DNA from: Candidatus Ornithospirochaeta stercorigallinarum
GTDB lineage: Bacteria; Spirochaetota; Spirochaetia; Sphaerochaetales; Sphaerochaetaceae
Direction of reading: 5' to 3'
NCBI GenBank assembly: GCA_018711525.1
Contig: DVIF01000039.1
Location: forward strand, 1 to 34,123
DNA: 34,123 nt
Position numbers and translations under genes: made by a program. Within the stretch, counting starts at the first letter, position 1, and each line of letters begins with the position of its first letter. The notes below the pieces were generated by a model. The model saw only the letters and a list, made by a program, of their open reading frames with translations. It ran no database searches and had not been told where the DNA came from. Below are positions 15,742 to 23,461 of the stretch, one piece after another.

Positions 15742-16308
15742 ATGAAAAAGCTCATATCCAGTATAATAACCGCACTCATTCCTTTTGTATTGGCCGTCCT
15801 GATGCTTGCATTTCCGAGCAGGACTGTCAGCATCGTCTTCTTCATGCTTGCCCTGTACATCCTTTATGGGGCTCTAAGGGATCTGTATATCGTATTGAAG
15901 GTGGATGCGCTTCCATCGAGGGTGAGGAATGTCTCTGTAGTGAAGAATGCGTTGAACATAATCCTTTCTGTGATTGTCATATTCCTCTCCTTCGCGAATC
16001 CTCAGGCGCTATTGGACATAGTCGTTTACATAATCGCACTGGATCTGCTTCTGACCGCGATTGCGGACAGCCTCGATTATGTGCTTCTCAGGCGTATGGG
16101 TATCAGGGACATCATCGCCATGGATGTCATCCTCAGGTATGTCTTTGCCTTAGTCATGTTCTTCTTCCCGTCTTTTATCTCGAGTACTTTCATCAAGATT
16201 GTCGCAATCATAATACTGGTGCTCTCCTCCCTTTATATTGCTTTCTGCGTTTTCGCATACAGAAATAAAAAAGATGAAATAATCGTAGAATACGAGGAGA
16301 AAGATTGA
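15742..16308 (+). CDS. Small multi-helix membrane protein (DUF308/HdeD-like)
   Basis: The 188-residue protein has about six hydrophobic segments arranged in pairs (for example IPFVLAVLMLAFP, VSIVFFMLALYILYGAL, ALNIILSVIVIFLSFANP, YVFALVMFFFPSF, IVAIIILVLSSLYIAFCVF) and a charged C-terminal tail. The 'I.L...P...(L/I)......L......GI' spacing recalls DUF308/HdeD proteins, but no catalytic or binding residue identifies a function. ATG 15742 follows GAGGTG closely; a GTG at 15736 is in frame two codons earlier. The gene is divergent from the HAD phosphatase and stops 32 bases before the his leader peptide. Confidence 0.7.
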   Translation: MKKLISSIITALIPFVLAVLMLAFPSRTVSIVFFMLALYILYGALRDLYIVLKVDALPSRVRNVSVVKNALNIILSVIVIFLSFANPQALLDIVVYIIALDLLLTAIADSLDYVLLRRMGIRDIIAMDVILRYVFALVMFFFPSFISSTFIKIVAIIILVLSSLYIAFCVFAYRNKKDEIIVEYEEKD

Positions 16309-16332
16309 CCAAAGTACTTTCTTTGGTTTAAA
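16305..16332 (+). promoter_or_regulatory. Candidate promoter of the histidine operon
   Basis: TTGACC at 16305-16310 (5 of 6 matches to -35) and TTTAAA at 16327-16332 (4 of 6 to -10) are 16 bases apart. TGG directly precedes the -10 (extended -10). The -35 overlaps the stop codon of the preceding membrane-protein gene. Transcription would start near 16339, just ahead of the leader-peptide ATG at 16341. Confidence 0.45.
16308..16327. repeat. Perfect inverted repeat within the his promoter
   Basis: Two 7-base arms, ACCAAAG (16308-16314) and CTTTGGT (16321-16327), are separated by TACTTT. The palindrome fills the -35/-10 spacer of the candidate his promoter, so it could be a repressor operator. 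It could also fold as a weak terminator for the upstream membrane-protein gene, but no T-run follows it. Confidence 0.5.
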
Positions 16333-16340
16333 AAAGGAAT

Positions 16341-16382
16341 ATGAAAGCTATTAAGAGACATCATCACCACTTTGTTTTCTGA
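16341..16382 (+). CDS. hisL: Histidine operon leader peptide
   Basis: A 13-codon open frame reads M-K-A-I-K-R-H-H-H-H-F-V-F, then stop, with four consecutive His codons (CAT CAT CAC CAC) at 16359-16370. It lies 84 bases before hisG, upstream of a terminator hairpin and a competing structure, exactly where an attenuation leader peptide belongs. In E. coli and Salmonella, hisL carries seven consecutive His codons and ribosome stalling there under histidine shortage prevents termination. A possible ribosome site AAGGA lies at 16334-16338, only two bases from the ATG, so initiation efficiency is uncertain. Four adjacent His codons at this position are very unlikely by chance. Confidence 0.77.
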   Translation: MKAIKRHHHHFVF

Positions 16383-16436
16383 CTTGTTTACCAGACGAGG
16401 TGGTTTTTGTCATATCAAAAGGTCGTCCTTTCTGGT
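16363..16436 (+). promoter_or_regulatory. Alternative RNA pairings of the his attenuator (1:2 helix and antiterminator)
   Basis: The segment ACCAGA-(C)-GAGG (16390-16400) can pair with CCTTTCTGGT (16427-16436). Six Watson-Crick pairs are followed by a bulged C and four more pairs, one of them G-U. This helix would occupy the loop region of the terminator at 16417-16448 and exclude it. Separately, ATCACC inside the His codons (16363-16368) can pair with GGTGGT (16399-16404). A ribosome stalled on the His codons would block that second helix and leave the antiterminator free. These pairings were found by eye, without energy calculation. Confidence 0.6.
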
Positions 16437-16448
16437 CGGCCTTTTTTT
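16417..16448 (+). terminator. Intrinsic terminator of the his attenuator
   Basis: AAAAGGTCG (16417-16425) pairs with CGGCCTTTT (16437-16445), with one G-U wobble. The stem can be extended inside by two G-C pairs after a U-U mismatch, leaving the short loop TTTCT. The stem runs straight into a T-run ending at 16448. The hairpin sits 18 bases before the hisG start codon and after the leader peptide, so it would end transcription when histidine is plentiful. Confidence 0.75.
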
Positions 16449-16466
16449 GTTTCCAAGGAGGTTGAG

Positions 16467-17336
16467 ATGCAAGAGGTTTTGAAAGTTGCGATACAGAAAA
16501 GCGGGAGGCTGAGCGAAAAGAGCCTTGAGATCATCAGAAGCTGCGGTATCGACTTCGCCACAGACAGCAGGGTCCTGAGGGAGAGGGCTGGGAACTTCCC
16601 CCTTGAGTTCCTTTTCGTCCGCGATGATGACATCCCGACATATGTACGCGATGGTGTTGCCGATATCGGAATCGTCGGAAGGAACGAATTCGATGAGTCC
16701 GGGTTCTATCTTGAGGTGGTGAAGGACCTTAAGTTCGCCAAGTGCAGGCTCAGCATCGCAGTCCCGAATGATTTCGACTACAAGGGGCTTGAGAGCCTTG
16801 AGGGAAAGAGGATTGCGACAAGCTACCCGAACATCATGATGAAGATATTGAAGGAGAAGGGTGTGAATGCGACTCCGGTGGTCGTTTCCGGCTCTGTGGA
16901 GATAACCCCCCAGGTCGGGATAGCGGACTGCATCTGCGACATAGTATCGACGGGGACGACCCTCAAGATGAATGGGCTTAAGGAGGCAGAGGAGATCTAC
17001 CGCTCATCTGCAATCATGATCGCTCGTCCGGGATTCACAAACACAGTCTCGGAGAAGAACAGGATATTGCAGCGCCTATTGGAGAGGATGGATGCTGTCG
17101 AGCTTGCAAAGAACAAGAAGTACATCCTTTTCAACCTTCCCTCAGAGAAGCTTGATGAGGCTGCATCAATCATCGGAGGTATGAAGAGCCCGACTGTGAC
17201 TCCGCTTATGGACAGGTCATGGCTCAGCGTCCAGTCCGTTGTGAGCGAGGACCGTTTCTGGTCCGTATTCGAGGATTTGAAGGCGATAGGAGCTGAGGGA
17301 ATCCTTGTAATGAACATCGAGAAGATGACGGAGTAG
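16467..17336 (+). CDS. hisG: ATP phosphoribosyltransferase, long form
   Basis: First step of histidine synthesis: ATP and PRPP give phosphoribosyl-ATP. At 289 residues this is the long form with a C-terminal ACT-like domain that binds histidine for feedback inhibition (about 215-289, FNLPSEKLDEAASIIGGMKSPTVTPL region). No hisZ is needed or seen. The N-terminus VLKVAIQKSGRLSEKSLE and the PRPP-loop segment CDIVSTGTTLKMNGLKE are characteristic. ATG 16467 follows a strong AAGGAGG (16455-16461). The frame is open to 16407, but that part covers the attenuator. hisD starts 3 bases after the stop. Confidence 0.96.
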   Translation: MQEVLKVAIQKSGRLSEKSLEIIRSCGIDFATDSRVLRERAGNFPLEFLFVRDDDIPTYVRDGVADIGIVGRNEFDESGFYLEVVKDLKFAKCRLSIAVPNDFDYKGLESLEGKRIATSYPNIMMKILKEKGVNATPVVVSGSVEITPQVGIADCICDIVSTGTTLKMNGLKEAEEIYRSSAIMIARPGFTNTVSEKNRILQRLLERMDAVELAKNKKYILFNLPSEKLDEAASIIGGMKSPTVTPLMDRSWLSVQSVVSEDRFWSVFEDLKAIGAEGILVMNIEKMTE

Positions 17337-17339
17337 TGT

Positions 17340-18623
17340 ATGTTGGATTTCTTCTATAACCCGGATGAGAAGGAGCTTGATAGGCTTCTTGAGAGGAACA
17401 ACGATAACAATGAGGACATTCTTTCTTCTGTGAGAGCCATCATGGAGGATGTGAGGACAAGGGGGGATGAGGCGCTTTATGAATATGCCCTCCGCTATGA
17501 TAACTCAGACCTCGACAGCCTCTTTGTCTCGAAAGAGGAGATCGATCAGGCCGAACAGATGATAAAGCCTGAACTCAGGGATGCCATCCGCCTCGCCGCA
17601 TGCAATATAAGGACGTTCCATGAGACGCAGATAAGAGAGGGGGAGAGATGTGAGACGATGGAAGGAGTCGAGCTTTGGAGGAAGATAGTTCCTATATCAA
17701 AGCCCGGTCTCTATGTCCCTGGAGGAACGGCTCCTCTTTTCTCGACCGTCCTGATGCTTGCAATCCCCGCCCATGTGGCAGGCTGCAGGGACATAATGCT
17801 TGCAACACCTGCGAAGGACAACAGGATGAACCCCGCAATACTCTATGCCGCCAAACTCTCCGGTGTCGACAGGATACTCAAGGTCGGAGGGGCTCAGGCG
17901 ATTGCCGCATTCACATACGGCACCGAGAGTGTTGAGAGAAGGAACAAGATCTTCGGACCCGGCAACAGGTTCGTCTCCTTTGCAAAGATGGAGGCGAGCC
18001 GCACTGTCTCAATAGACATGCTTGCAGGGCCGAGCGAGGTGATGGTCCTTGCCGACAGCTCCGCCAGTCCTTTATATATCGCAACCGATCTTCTTTCCCA
18101 GGCTGAGCATGGCCCTGACAGCCAGGCGATCCTGGTGTTCATCGGAAAAAGGAAAGATGCAGAGGAGATGAAGGATGATGTGCTGAGGGAGACGGAGCGC
18201 CTTTTAAGGGAACTTGAAAGAAGTGAATACATGCTTAAAAGTCTTGAGCATTCGAGGATTCTTGCATTCTCCTCAACAGAAGATGCCATGAAAGCTGTGA
18301 ACGAGTACGCGCCTGAGCATCTGATAATAAACACAGCAGATCCTGAGAGTCTGCTAGAGCTTGTCGAGTCTGCAGGATCCGTGTTCCTCGGACCTTACAG
18401 CCCCGAGAGTGCAGGGGACTATGCAAGCGGGACGAACCACACCCTTCCCACAAGCGGATTCGCCAAGTCCTCTTCCGGGGTCTCCGTGGATTCCTTCATC
18501 AAGAAGATTACAGTACAGAAGCTCAGCAGGAAGGGCGCTGAGAACATAGGAAGGGCCGTCATGGAGATGGCTGAGGCTGAGAGCCTTTATGCACATAAGG
18601 AGGCGATGAGGGTACGATTATGA
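17340..18623 (+). CDS. hisD: Histidinol dehydrogenase
   Basis: Last two oxidation steps, L-histidinol to L-histidine with NAD and a catalytic zinc. The 427-residue length is standard. Family segments are YVPGGTAPLFSTVLMLAIPA, GGAQAIAAFTYGTESV, GPGNRFVSFAKM and AGPSEVMVLAD. The zinc/catalytic residues lie in QAEHGPDSQA (near 254-257), in YAPEHLIINT, and in AGDYASGTNHTLPT (near 360-366). The start is ATG 17340, three bases after hisG; no other start fits better. The stop overlaps the hisC start as ATGA. Confidence 0.97.
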   Translation: MLDFFYNPDEKELDRLLERNNDNNEDILSSVRAIMEDVRTRGDEALYEYALRYDNSDLDSLFVSKEEIDQAEQMIKPELRDAIRLAACNIRTFHETQIREGERCETMEGVELWRKIVPISKPGLYVPGGTAPLFSTVLMLAIPAHVAGCRDIMLATPAKDNRMNPAILYAAKLSGVDRILKVGGAQAIAAFTYGTESVERRNKIFGPGNRFVSFAKMEASRTVSIDMLAGPSEVMVLADSSASPLYIATDLLSQAEHGPDSQAILVFIGKRKDAEEMKDDVLRETERLLRELERSEYMLKSLEHSRILAFSSTEDAMKAVNEYAPEHLIINTADPESLLELVESAGSVFLGPYSPESAGDYASGTNHTLPTSGFAKSSSGVSVDSFIKKITVQKLSRKGAENIGRAVMEMAEAESLYAHKEAMRVRL

Positions 18624-19678
18624 TAGCAGATTATATGAGAAGCCATATTCTCAGCCTTGAAAGCTATACATCGGCACGTGATGAGTTCTCAGGGTATGCA
18701 GAGGTATATCTGGATGCGAATGAGAACTGGAAGGATTTCTCCCTCTCAGGTAAGAACAGATACCCCGATCCCCATGCCTCAGAGCTGAGGAGAAAAATAG
18801 AAGAGGTGATGGGCTTTAGAGTGGAGAATACCGTGCTTGGTAACGGTTCCGATGAGCTGATAGACATGCTTATCAGGATCTTCGCAGAGCCCGGGAAGGA
18901 TTGTGTCCTGATAGAGCGGCCTACATATGGGGAATACAAGGTGTTCGCAGAGATAAACGGGGTGGAGGTGATCAACGTCCCACTGACTGATTCCCTTGAG
19001 CTTGATGTCGATGCGATAAAGAGCTCAATTGATGAGAAGAGCCCCAAGATCGTATTCATCTGTTCTCCGAACAACCCCACAGGCAGAAGCTATGACATTG
19101 ATGTGATCAGAGAGATCGCCGACTACAATCCGTCCCTTACAGTAATAGATGAGGCTTATGCCGATTTCGATCCTTCATTTGTCAGTGCCTATACCCTGCT
19201 TAAGGATAATGAGAGGGTGGCAGTCTTAAGGACGTTCTCCAAGTATTGGGCCCTTGCCGCATCACGTATCGGCATACTCATAGCATCCCCTGTGGTGATA
19301 AAAGCGGTCAACAAGATAAAAGCTCCGTACAACGTCTCACTTTCTGCACAGCGTGACGGTCTTGAGGCCCTAGGGAATGCCGATGGGAGAAAGGCCGTCC
19401 TTGAAGAGATCCTTGGAGAGAAGAAGAGGCTTGAAGGGGAGTTTGGAAGGTTCTCTTTTGTTGAGAAAATCTACAGAAGTGATGCCAACTTCCTCCTGAT
19501 AAAGGTCAGCGATGCCGACGCTCTCTATTTATATCTCATGAAGAAGGGTATAATCGTCCGTAACCGGAGCCGTGAACCGCTTCTTTCCAACACCCTCAGG
19601 ATCACCATCGGTTCCAAAGAGGAGAACGACAAGCTTCTGGAGGCTTTTGATGAAAGGGAAAAAAGTACTGTTTCTTGA
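18620..19678 (+). CDS. hisC: Histidinol-phosphate aminotransferase
   Basis: PLP-dependent class I/II aminotransferase that converts imidazole-acetol phosphate and glutamate to histidinol phosphate. In 352 residues, recognisable segments are YLDANENWKDF, RYPDPHASELRRKI, LGNGSDELIDMLIR, the substrate loop CSPNNPTGRSYD, and VIDEAYADF (cofactor Asp). The Schiff-base Lys208 is in TFSKYWALAASRIG, and RITIG with the carboxylate-binding Arg is near the end. It overlaps hisD by 4 bases and hisB by 29 bases. Confidence 0.96.
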   Translation: MIADYMRSHILSLESYTSARDEFSGYAEVYLDANENWKDFSLSGKNRYPDPHASELRRKIEEVMGFRVENTVLGNGSDELIDMLIRIFAEPGKDCVLIERPTYGEYKVFAEINGVEVINVPLTDSLELDVDAIKSSIDEKSPKIVFICSPNNPTGRSYDIDVIREIADYNPSLTVIDEAYADFDPSFVSAYTLLKDNERVAVLRTFSKYWALAASRIGILIASPVVIKAVNKIKAPYNVSLSAQRDGLEALGNADGRKAVLEEILGEKKRLEGEFGRFSFVEKIYRSDANFLLIKVSDADALYLYLMKKGIIVRNRSREPLLSNTLRITIGSKEENDKLLEAFDEREKSTVS

Positions 19679-20774
19679 CCGTGACGGGGTCATAGTGAAT
19701 GAGACCCAGGTCGACAGCTATGAGAGGATAATCTACATCCCTCATGTGTTCGAGGCCCTGAGGAGGCTGCGTCGTGAAAGCGATTTTGAATTCGTCATGG
19801 TCTCCAACCAGGATGGGGTGGGAACCCCGTCGTTCCCATATGATGATTTCAAGAAATGCCAGGAGAGGATAATCGCAACGCTCGAAGGGGAGGACATCTA
19901 TTTCGATGATATAAACATAGATTTCTCCCTTCCTGAGGACAGCTGCCCGACACGTAAGCCATCAAGCCTGATGGTCGAGGACTATAAGAGCGGAGAGTGG
20001 GACCTTTCATCTTCCTTCATGGTCGGAGACAGGATCACCGATATGATTCTTGCAAAGAACATAGGATGCAGGGGGATACTTCTGAACAAGGGTGTTGAGA
20101 TTCCTGAGGATTTGAAGGATACGGTTTCCCTTGAGACGGATTCCTGGCTTGAGATTCTATCATTCCTCCTTCCCGATCGCAGTCTGCTTCCTCATAGGAG
20201 GGCGGAGCTGGAGAGGAAGACCAAGGAGACCGATATTTCACTTTCGATAGACCTCGACGGTACGGGCAAAGGTGAGATTGTTACTGGAATCGGGTTTTTC
20301 GACCATATGCTTTCTCAGATTGTGAGGCATTCACGGTATGACATAAACGGCACGGTCAAAGGGGACTTTGATGTGGATGAGCACCATAGTGTGGAGGACC
20401 TTGCCATCACCCTGGGCTCTCTTATCGGAAAAGCCCTGGGGGACAAGAGGGGGATAGAGCGGTACGGATATGAGATACTCACAATGGATGATGTCGTTGC
20501 GACAGTCGCCCTCGATTTCTCAGGACGTCCGGATTTCATTTATGATGTGGATATCAGAAGGGAGTATATAGGATCGTTTCCTGTCGAGATGATAAGGCAT
20601 TTCTTCAAATCATTTTCCGACAGCGCACGGATGAACCTTTACATAAAAGTCTCTGATGGGAACTCCCATCATCAGGCGGAGGCCGTTTTCAAAGCCTTTG
20701 CACGTGCCCTCAGGAAAGCCAGCAGACGGATTGCCGGAGCAACTGATATCTCAAGTACGAAAGGAGTTCTGTGA
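19650..20774 (+). CDS. hisB: Bifunctional histidinol-phosphatase / imidazoleglycerol-phosphate dehydratase
   Basis: A two-domain fusion of 374 residues. Residues 1-165 are a HAD phosphatase (FLDRDGVIVNE with Asp10 and Asp12; VMVSNQDGVGT; MVGDRITDMILAKNIGCRG). Residues about 185-374 are the dehydratase, with paired histidine motifs DEHHSVEDLAITLG and GNSHHQAEAVFKAFARALR and the end SSTKGVL. In E. coli the phosphatase loop 'CPHxPxDxCxCRKP' binds zinc; here it reads DFSLPEDSCPTRKP, keeping only one of the four ligands. This form recalls Bacteroidota HisB rather than enteric HisB. ATG 19650 follows GGAGG; the frame is open to 19572 within hisC. Confidence 0.95.
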   Translation: MKGKKVLFLDRDGVIVNETQVDSYERIIYIPHVFEALRRLRRESDFEFVMVSNQDGVGTPSFPYDDFKKCQERIIATLEGEDIYFDDINIDFSLPEDSCPTRKPSSLMVEDYKSGEWDLSSSFMVGDRITDMILAKNIGCRGILLNKGVEIPEDLKDTVSLETDSWLEILSFLLPDRSLLPHRRAELERKTKETDISLSIDLDGTGKGEIVTGIGFFDHMLSQIVRHSRYDINGTVKGDFDVDEHHSVEDLAITLGSLIGKALGDKRGIERYGYEILTMDDVVATVALDFSGRPDFIYDVDIRREYIGSFPVEMIRHFFKSFSDSARMNLYIKVSDGNSHHQAEAVFKAFARALRKASRRIAGATDISSTKGVL

Positions 20775-21364
20775 TGACCGTTGTCATAAAATACAATGCA
20801 GGCAATGTGCAGAGCGTGATGTGCGCCCTCAAGCGTCTGGGCATCGAGGCGGTACTCAGTGATGATGAGCATCTTATCAGAAGTGCCGACCATGTGATCT
20901 TCCCCGGTGTGGGGGAGGCCGGGTCCGCGATGTCGTACCTGGAGGAAAAGGGCATGGTGGATATCATCAGAGGCCTCAGGATGCCGTTTCTAGGCATATG
21001 CCTTGGTATGCAGCTCCTCTCTTCCTTCTCAGAAGAAGGGAGTGCGAAGTGCCTGGATATAATACCTGTCGGGATAAAGCTTTTTGAGAGGAACAGGGGG
21101 TATAAGATTCCTCATATCGGGTGGAACAATGTCTCTTTTGAAACTGACTGCCCCCTTTTCAGAGGCATCGGTAAAGACAGCTGGTTCTATTTTGTACACT
21201 CATATTACGCAACCCTTTCAGACTATACCATCGCAAGGACGGATTATGATGGAATTACTTTTTCCTCCGCACTCTCCCGCGATAACTTCTATGGTGTGCA
21301 GTTCCATCCGGAGAAGAGCGGGGATGCGGGGCTGAAGCTTCTTAAGAACTTTCTGGAGATGTGA
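20774..21364 (+). CDS. hisH: Imidazole glycerol phosphate synthase, glutaminase subunit
   Basis: Supplies ammonia from glutamine to HisF. In 196 residues it has the class I glutamine amidotransferase triad: nucleophile Cys76 in FLGICLGMQLL, and His178 and Glu180 in VQFHPEKSG. The N-terminus TVVIKYNAGNVQSV and the oxyanion segment FPGVGEAGSAM are typical of HisH. The start is ATG 20774, overlapping the hisB stop as TGATG, with AAGGAG seven bases ahead; a GTG at 20771 is also in frame. Confidence 0.97.
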   Translation: MTVVIKYNAGNVQSVMCALKRLGIEAVLSDDEHLIRSADHVIFPGVGEAGSAMSYLEEKGMVDIIRGLRMPFLGICLGMQLLSSFSEEGSAKCLDIIPVGIKLFERNRGYKIPHIGWNNVSFETDCPLFRGIGKDSWFYFVHSYYATLSDYTIARTDYDGITFSSALSRDNFYGVQFHPEKSGDAGLKLLKNFLEM

Positions 21365-21366
21365 AT

Positions 21367-22086
21367 ATGGATATCATACCTGCTATAGACATAATGGACG
21401 GGCATTGCGTGCGACTGAGAAAAGGGGATTACGGGAGTGCTAGAAGCTACTCCTCAGATCCCCTCTCCATGGCCAGGACTTTTGAGGATGCGGGTCTTCA
21501 TCGTCTTCATCTTGTGGACCTTGACGGGGCGAAGGGAAGGGGGATCTGCAACCTTGATGTGCTTGAGAGGATTGCGTCAAAGACCAGTCTTGTAGTCGAT
21601 TTCGGAGGTGGGATAAAAAACGAGGAGGCAATCGCTTCTGCGTTTAATGCAGGGGCTGCCTATGTCACATGCGGCTCTCTCGCAATCAAGGACAGGCCTC
21701 TTACCCTCTCCTTCCTGGAAAGATACGGTGGCAGACTGATCCTAGGGGCCGATTCCGAGAACGGGCGGGTAAAGGCCTCTGGCTGGCTTGAGGATGGAGG
21801 GGTCGATGTCATCGATTTCATAAAAAGCTATGAGGGTAGAGGATTCAGCTATCTCATACCTACGGATATCGCAAGGGATGGAATGCTCTCAGGTCCTTCC
21901 TTCTCCCTTTATGAGAAGATAATGAAGTCTTCATCAATCCCCCTGATAGCATCGGGAGGCATCTCTTCCCTCTCCGATCTCGTAGCCTTGAAGAAGATGG
22001 GGCTCTCAGGTGCGATTGTCGGCAAGGCGTATTATGAAGGGCTTATTACACTCGATGATATGAAGGAGGTCTCTGATGCTTGCTAA
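21367..22086 (+). CDS. hisA: ProFAR isomerase (phosphoribosylformimino-5-aminoimidazole carboxamide ribotide isomerase)
   Basis: A beta/alpha-barrel isomerase for the Amadori rearrangement step. In 239 residues the catalytic Asp8 is in [20 protein letters not shown], and the second acid is in [10 protein letters not shown]. The phosphate-binding loops are VDFGGGIKN and [16 protein letters not shown] 21367 lies eight bases after GGAG; the GTG at 21361, two codons earlier, is less likely. It overlaps hisF by 11 bases. Confidence 0.97.
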
Positions 22087-22840
22087 AAGAATAATCCCAT
22101 GTCTCGATATAAAGGACGGACGTGTCGTCAAGGGAATAAACTTCCTCTCCCTCCGTGATGCGGGAAGCCCTGTGGAGATGGCTCGGCTCTATAGTGAGCT
22201 CGGTGCGGATGAGCTTGTCTTCCTGGATATCACGGCAACGGTTGAAAAGAGGAAGAACCTTGCCTCCCTTGTGCGGGATATAAGTGAGAACATCAGCATC
22301 CCTTTCACAGTCGGAGGAGGGATCAAGAGCGTTGATGATGCATATGATGTGATAAACAGCGGTGCGGACAAGGTCAGCATAAACAGTGCCGCCGTCCGTC
22401 GTCCTTCCTTGATTGATGAGCTTGCAGGGACTTTCGGGAGCCAGTGCGTCGTTCTTGCCGCAGATGTGAGGAGAAGCACAGAGCATGAATCGGGGTATGA
22501 AATCGTAATAGACGGAGGAAGAAGGCGTACAGGAATCGATGCCCTGTCCTGGATAAAGGAGGCGGAAGGGAGAGGAGCGGGGGAGATCCTGCTTACTTCA
22601 ATGGACCATGACGGTACAAAAAACGGCTTTGCTATTGACTTGAATTCAAGAATAAGTAGTAATATTGATATTCCACTGATTGCTTCTGGTGGCGCAGGTA
22701 AGATGGACGATTTCTATGACGTCTTCACAGAAGGGAGGGCCGATGCAGCTCTAGCCGCTTCGGTGTTCCATTTTCATGAAATAGACATCATGGAGCTCAA
22801 AAGGTATTTAAAAAGTAGGGGAATAGCTGTTAGAATTTAA
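22076..22840 (+). CDS. hisF: Imidazole glycerol phosphate synthase, cyclase subunit
   Basis: A beta/alpha-barrel cyclase that works with HisH to make imidazole glycerol phosphate and AICAR. In 254 residues the catalytic residues are Asp11 ([15 protein letters not shown]) and Asp130 (VVLAADVRR). The phosphate loops are [11 protein letters not shown] and [13 protein letters not shown]. The AICAR product links this operon to purine metabolism. AAGGAGG precedes ATG 22076 inside the end of hisA. A stretch at about 22620-22680 is more AT-rich than the rest, without breaking the frame. Confidence 0.97.
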
Positions 22841-22852
22841 CTGGAGGAGAAG

Positions 22853-23461
22853 ATGACGATAGATTTTGCTAAGGGTGATGGACTGGTTCCTGCAATCGTA
22901 CAGGATGCTATTACGAAAAAGGTTTTGATGCTCGGCTATATGAACGAGGAGGCATACCGATTAACCCTTGACCGTCGTCTTGTGACCTTCTGGTCCAGAA
23001 GCCGTAAGAGGATATGGACAAAGGGGGAGACCAGTGGCAATTTCCTGCACCTGAGGGAGATTCTTGCCGACTGCGATGGGGATACGCTTCTTGTGAAGGC
23101 CATCCCGTCAGGCCCTGTATGCCACACTGGAACAGATACCTGCTTCGGAGAGGAGAACCAGACCTCTGAGATCTCATCTTCCGAGTTCCTCTTCTACCTT
23201 GAGGATGTCATAAAGGACAGACGCGACAATCCTGTCGACGGCAGCTACACAAACCATCTCTTCTCCAGAGGGCTTAATAAGATAAGTCAGAAGGTGGGTG
23301 AGGAAGCCGTGGAGCTTGTAATCGAGAGCAAGGATAACGACAAGGACCTCTTCCTGGGAGAGGCTGCAGACCTCATGTACCATCTTCTTGTACTCCTTGT
23401 GCAGAAGGAGTGCTCACTTTCCGAGGTCGTGGATGTCCTTAAGGCAAGACATTCTAGATAA
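22853..23461 (+). CDS. hisI: Bifunctional phosphoribosyl-AMP cyclohydrolase / phosphoribosyl-ATP pyrophosphatase
   Basis: HisIE fusion of 202 residues covering steps two and three of the pathway. The HisI half (1 to about 112) has MLGYMNEEA, TFWSRSR and the metal sites DCDGD (73-77) and CHTGTDTC (Cys90, His91, Cys97). The HisE half (about 113-202) has SYTNHLFSRGLNKISQKVGE, then EEAVELVIESK and EAADLMYHLLVLL with the MazG-like acidic residues. A ribosome site GGAGGAG lies just ahead of ATG 22853. It is the last biosynthetic gene of the operon and overlaps the following pentapeptide gene by 29 bases. Confidence 0.96.
   Translation: MTIDFAKGDGLVPAIVQDAITKKVLMLGYMNEEAYRLTLDRRLVTFWSRSRKRIWTKGETSGNFLHLREILADCDGDTLLVKAIPSGPVCHTGTDTCFGEENQTSEISSSEFLFYLEDVIKDRRDNPVDGSYTNHLFSRGLNKISQKVGEEAVELVIESKDNDKDLFLGEAADLMYHLLVLLVQKECSLSEVVDVLKARHSR

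Follow-up and report, generated by a model that had tools for sequence, protein, structure and literature searches.

The window, i.e. the whole stretch of 34,123 nucleotides analysed here, belongs to a 1.93 Mb genome in 92 contigs assigned to Candidatus Ornithospirochaeta stercorigallinarum. Pfam searches revealed a his operon of eight genes at 16467-23461, of which those following hisG occupy 17340-23461. The nearest relatives of its hisG are found in Spirochaetaceae/Sphaerochaetaceae gut genomes, e.g. Bullifex porci and Candidatus Ornithospirochaeta. The upstream neighbour of the operon displayed a weak Pfam match to DUF308 and ends 32 nt before a leader of 126 nt, which precedes hisG. The features of the leader and the genes of the operon are listed in Table 1.

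Table 1. Features of the his leader and his operon in the window (positions are those of the whole stretch).
Feature	Position	Strand	Basis or remark
-35 element TTGACC of the predicted his promoter	16305-16310	+	starts 36 nt 5' of the leader ATG; shares bases with the stop codon of the DUF308-like gene upstream
-10 element position, TAAAAA in the window (family: TAnnGT, -12 to -7)	16329-16334	+	position weight matrix, 80 leaders
Predicted transcription start, A of the leader ATG (leaderless mRNA)	16341	+	-35/-10 spacing; 97% of leaders have C or T at -1
Leader peptide gene, MKAIKRHHHHFVF followed by the stop codon	16341-16382	+	frame read directly; homologous His-run leaders in relatives
Four His control codons CAT CAT CAC CAC	16359-16370	+	sole CAY x4 run of the window
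Segment 1, pairs with 16393-16404 if ribosome-free (protects the terminator)	16366-16377	+	folds; duplex -15.6 kcal/mol
Segment 2, alternative partner of segments 1 and 3	16390-16410	+	folding and stepwise folding
Segment 3, partner of segment 2 (antiterminator) or of segment 4 (terminator)	16417-16436	+	folds, swap test and stepwise folding
Intrinsic terminator, stem-loop 16417-16445 (-14.3 kcal/mol) and T7 16442-16448	16417-16448	+	terminator search
Shine-Dalgarno sequence AAGGAGG of hisG	16455-16461	+	read directly; outside the alternative stems
hisG, long form (HisG and HisG_C domains)	16467-17336	+	Pfam PF01634, PF08029
hisD	17340-18623	+	ORF and Pfam
hisC (aminotransferase)	18620-19678	+	ORF and Pfam
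hisB (HAD-IGPD)	19650-20774	+	ORF and Pfam
hisH (amidotransferase)	20771-21364	+	ORF and Pfam
hisA	21361-22086	+	ORF and Pfam
hisF	22076-22840	+	ORF and Pfam
hisIE	22853-23461	+	ORF and Pfam

The leader opens with a frame of 13 codons, in which ATG AAA GCT ATT AAG AGA precede and TTT GTT TTC TGA follow the four consecutive His codons. With His at 4 of 13 positions, this short ORF is enriched in codons for the very amino acid that the operon makes. A scan of both strands of the whole window revealed no second run of four CAY codons, and a frame combining the promoter spacing with a His run also occurs only once. An intrinsic terminator is located between this frame and the first structural gene. 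Folding of the leader revealed two further helices. The 1:2 helix, formed by segment 1, includes the last His codons, and the 2:3 helix joins 16391-16409 with 16417-16436 in two blocks. The first-pass annotation had described the frame, the terminator hairpin with its T-run and their location before hisG, all of which were confirmed. The competing helix that it had placed at 16390-16400/16427-16436 is real, but was drawn too short and represents the loop-proximal part of the 2:3 helix. It had missed the 1:2 helix and the spacing between TTGAC and the leader ATG, which is not preceded by a Shine-Dalgarno sequence.

To this locus we compared hisG upstream regions from 100 relatives, a scan of the collection, 395 genomes of the class and extra stretches. 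Removal of identical sequences left 90 His-run leaders before a long-form hisG, including one doubtful Marinimicrobia record (L067). Nearly all of them belong to the Spirochaetia. Within the window's family they come from 13 genera, one of them that of the window itself, and they also occur in four more families of this class (f3, f4, f5 and f17). Carriers include G197 and the named isolate Bullifex porci (L038). Of the long-form his operons examined, nearly all have retained the His-run leader. The first-pass annotation had proposed to look for a His-codon frame and a terminator in related his operons; both are present in the relatives, as is the competing helix. The residues flanking the His run vary widely among groups (MERRNGHIHHSLVQS, MKTNQNRVHHHHHLCNRP, MNSDIIIAAQHHHTHHFTSA and others), and the run itself is the conserved portion of the leader peptide. 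The full signature was detected in 35 of 39 hisG upstream regions vs. none in 487,190 bases of flanking DNA from the same loci, searched on both strands.

The leader is absent from two genomes of the window's genus (G018 and G025), which have retained the his operon and the DUF308-like gene. Leader and terminator have been lost there, and GCTAGAGATTAGAATCCT is found instead directly before hisG, in a region of about 100 bases upstream of this gene. Likewise, no leader was found in G079, whose HisG is 44% identical, or upstream of distant or short-form HisG genes. In five genomes labelled as the window's genus, the sole HisG is distant or of the short form (33-38% identical) and has no His leader, which points to his operons of two origins within this genus. 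At 2818-2895, ahead of hisG, the Marinimicrobia MAG (L067; HisG 48% identical) contains the frame MSNNLKTWPSTHCHHHTMWMQVTCF together with a strong terminator. We did not count it as the same element, since it has no supported 2:3 helix and no TTGAC promoter; it is possibly an independent His attenuator.

When 80 leaders were aligned on their ATG, TTGAC began 35-37 bases before it in 79 of them and 40 bases before it in the remaining one. These 80 leaders, all without a Shine-Dalgarno sequence, were used to build the promoter matrix, which gave the -10 consensus and the preference at -1 listed in Table 1; the TAAAAA of the window is weaker than this consensus. The mean anti-Shine-Dalgarno energy was -1.6 kcal/mol before the leaders vs. 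-10.1 kcal/mol before hisG in the same genomes. As the -35 and -10 elements are locked to the ATG and no Shine-Dalgarno sequence is present, a leaderless mRNA is predicted for the leader, with a sigma-70 promoter that would place +1 on the A of the leader ATG. This holds for the family; in the window the -35 element is well placed and the -10 element is weak. It is unlikely that the element is instead an ordinary attenuator with a conventional 5' UTR and a weak AAGGA, which would make TTGAC a decoy and invalidate the leaderless reading. Such an arrangement would fit the window copy, with AAAAAAGGAAT before its ATG, and eight leaders near Bullifex by genus label, which have a clear AGGAG and a -35 element further upstream. 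However, it does not agree with the fixed promoter spacing in the 80 leaders or with their anti-Shine-Dalgarno energies, and an upstream shift of the -35 element in the Shine-Dalgarno-type leaders is what would be expected of alternative modes of initiation.

Some of the Bullifex-related leaders have switched from a leaderless to a Shine-Dalgarno-led start, and the -35 element of the latter is located about 49-60 bases or more before the ATG. A small share of leaderless genes has been reported for Spirochaetes, on average 3.9% in those genomes in which any were found (PMC3160421). In a set of 40 genomes of the class, the leaderless promoter pattern TTGACA-N16-18-TANNNT-N5-7-ATG exceeded its reversed control severalfold in most cases. 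Many leaderless genes are suggested for the Spirochaetia by this pattern, among them an apparent rnhA-like frame that several Sphaerochaeta-type genomes share. A looser promoter-His pattern returned mostly chance matches over the class and is useful only where hisG follows. Matches to equivalent leaderless Trp leaders were near the reversed-pattern control in many genomes, and none was evident among the matches listed. Only tentatively, and with a rather low likelihood, we propose that the lack of a 5' UTR contributes to the mechanism. The ribosome would load on the AUG once this exits the polymerase, and leaderless initiation would replace the synchronisation of ribosome and polymerase by a pause hairpin; it would have been kept family-wide for that reason, with a secondary switch to a Shine-Dalgarno-led start in some Bullifex relatives.

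Terminators were located in 87 of the 90 leaders, with a few weak calls (L143, L146 and L170). Their stems diverge yet keep their pairing (AAAAGGTCG/CGGCCTTTT, GGCCTCCC/GGGAGGCT, GACTCCGC/GCGGAGTT and AAGGCCTGC/GCAGGCCTT), and in most leaders no more than about 10 bases separate the start of segment 2 from the stop codon of the leader peptide. A MAFFT alignment was rejected for covariation counts, because loop lengths differ and the terminator columns were misaligned, and a swap test was used instead. Helices formed by segments 2 and 3 of the same species had a mean energy of -13.7 kcal/mol vs. -10.1 kcal/mol with segments of unlike species (n = 83); p-values of this test and of the stepwise folding described below treat related sequences as independent and are only indicative. 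The Sphaerochaeta-like group showed no preference for its own segments. Taken singly, the 2:3 helix was stronger than in dinucleotide shuffles (p < 0.05) in only 27 of 87 leaders, a weak single-sequence significance that reflects the GC-rich segment 3. The fold of the whole leader is not unusual on its own (z = -1.33), and the case for the element therefore rests on comparative evidence.

Folding at equilibrium was uninformative as a test of the switch, since in the window, with segment 4 present, the terminator formed in every ribosome state. Stepwise folding was used instead. Here, leaders were folded only to the end of segment 3 and the bases under the ribosome were removed, mimicking transcription; this models kinetics crudely and places the front of the ribosome, by assumption, at A-site +13. 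The expected number of 2:3 pairs (n = 82) reached 12.6 when the ribosome stood at the first His codon and was 5.5 both when it stood at the stop codon and when it was absent, and the His-stalled value dropped to 6.8 with a shuffled spacer as control. The difference between the His stall and the stop codon exceeded 3 pairs in 69 of 82 leaders, and the reverse was found in none. For the window alone, the corresponding values were 16.2 (His stall), 6.9 (no ribosome) and 2.9 (stop codon). A mutually exclusive antiterminator that depends on the ribosome position is thus seen in silico by stepwise folding and the swap test, but not at equilibrium in the window, and the switch of the window must be kinetic as the terminator wins at equilibrium in all states. 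Control by attenuators is generally held to be kinetic. Folding with alternative structures, as the first-pass annotation had advised, yielded the 1:2 helix; the switch of the window appeared in stepwise folding only.

In MER-type leaders (L011, L013, L014 and others) the 5' transcript end GGAAAGAAG is complementary to a stretch just past the terminator (TTTTTCTTTCC). The resulting helix exceeded shuffles in 8 of 25 MER-type leaders and did not in the others, so that such a pairing is suggestive, and for MER-type leaders only.

We consider it very probable, from the sequence comparisons and the modelled folding, that the element is a ribosome-mediated transcription attenuator by which the supply of charged His-tRNA would control the his operon. 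The relatives' His-codon frames, terminators and competing helices and the stepwise folding support this reading, which the first-pass annotation had already put forward. According to the conserved spacing, a sigma-70 RNA polymerase would start at the A of the leader ATG and translation of the leader peptide would use a leaderless mRNA. If His-tRNA is in short supply, the ribosome would, as in classical systems, stall on one of the four His codons and cover segment 1, leaving segment 2 free. The emerging segment 3 could then pair with segment 2, as folding and covariation suggest, no terminator would form and hisGDCBHAF(IE) would be transcribed. When His-tRNA is plentiful, the ribosome would reach the stop codon and its front would cover the start of segment 2, so that the 3:4 terminator could form and transcription would stop near 16448. 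If no ribosome is present, segment 2 would be trapped in the 1:2 helix and the terminator would form too.

Three other readings have to be weighed against transcription attenuation. A leader that regulates the translation of hisG, through coupling or sequestration of its Shine-Dalgarno sequence, appears improbable: such variants of amino-acid attenuators exist (PMC9413887), but a GC-rich stem with T-run is retained in nearly all leaders and the hisG Shine-Dalgarno sequence is located outside the alternative stems. T-boxes control his genes in many Firmicutes (PMC9413887). A His-specific T-box or another tRNA- or ligand-binding riboswitch with incidental His codons is nevertheless very improbable here, as no T-box or other Rfam family reached the gathering score in the window or 14 relatives, no sub-threshold match was convincing, a leader of 126 nt is short for a T-box and what is conserved of the peptide is its His run; neither a covariance model match nor a specifier loop with T-box bulge was found. 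A chance His-run frame over a constitutive intergenic terminator, or over the terminator of the upstream gene, for which the nearby end of the DUF308-like gene and the unremarkable whole-leader fold could be invoked, has a negligible probability, since frame, His codons, switch geometry and promoter are conserved over 90 leaders and the signature, present in 35 of 39 upstream regions, is absent from 487 kb of flanks, which excludes a chance origin.

Ribosome-mediated His attenuation is classical in Gammaproteobacteria. The enteric his attenuator (RF00514) shares with the element a leader peptide with a His run, mutually exclusive RNA pairings and a terminator before hisG. In contrast to it, the spirochaete leader has a simple 1:2 / 2:3 / 3:4 layout whose segment 2 begins at the stop codon of the leader, a predicted leaderless start, a different phylum as host and no Rfam match, and sequence homology is not claimed; the His_leader covariance model found no match in the leader with E up to 10. 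It would therefore work like known attenuators, yet by sequence is not the Rfam His_leader. Its layout corresponds to that of the E. coli trp attenuator, a three-hairpin geometry whose segment 2 is masked by a ribosome that has reached the stop codon of the leader; the two differ in amino acid, in operon and in how translation of the leader starts. The enteric logic assumed by the first-pass annotation thus holds for the principle of attenuation; the layout is of the three-hairpin trp type and no copy of the enteric his leader.

Within the Firmicutes, His attenuation has been predicted for the B. cereus group, Peptostreptococcaceae and Erysipelotrichales (PMC9413887), as has a His leader of hisS/hisZ for bacilli (PMC2965389). 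These leaders share 3-5 His codons, terminator and antiterminator and the same comparative logic with the element. They belong to another phylum; PMC9413887 does not mention Spirochaetes, and its passages on these leaders that were consulted describe no leaderless start. Leaderless leader peptides are described for the Streptomyces Trp, Leu, Ilv and Thr attenuators (S. lividans trpL, leuL and ilvL; PMC8079986) and for Sinorhizobium meliloti trpL (PMC7298713). These likewise have the leader ATG at the 5' end of the transcript; however, they respond to Trp, branched-chain and other amino acids in other phyla, and none was found that senses histidine. The open literature searched describes no His or other leader-peptide attenuator for Spirochaetota, in line with the doubt expressed in the first-pass annotation.

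The element would extend ribosome-mediated His attenuation to the Spirochaetota. These leaders recur before nearly all long-form operons examined and Rfam detects none of them, which suggests that the trick arose again or is far wider than the catalogues say. The replacement of a leaderless by a Shine-Dalgarno-led start within one genus offers a natural comparison for the coupling of leaderless translation to transcription, and a cultured host exists in Bullifex porci DSM 105750 (PMC7738495). Compared with the known systems, the spirochaete leader, as read from sequence and folding models, appears as the classical principle of the ribosome-mediated attenuator in a new phylum and with a leaderless twist.
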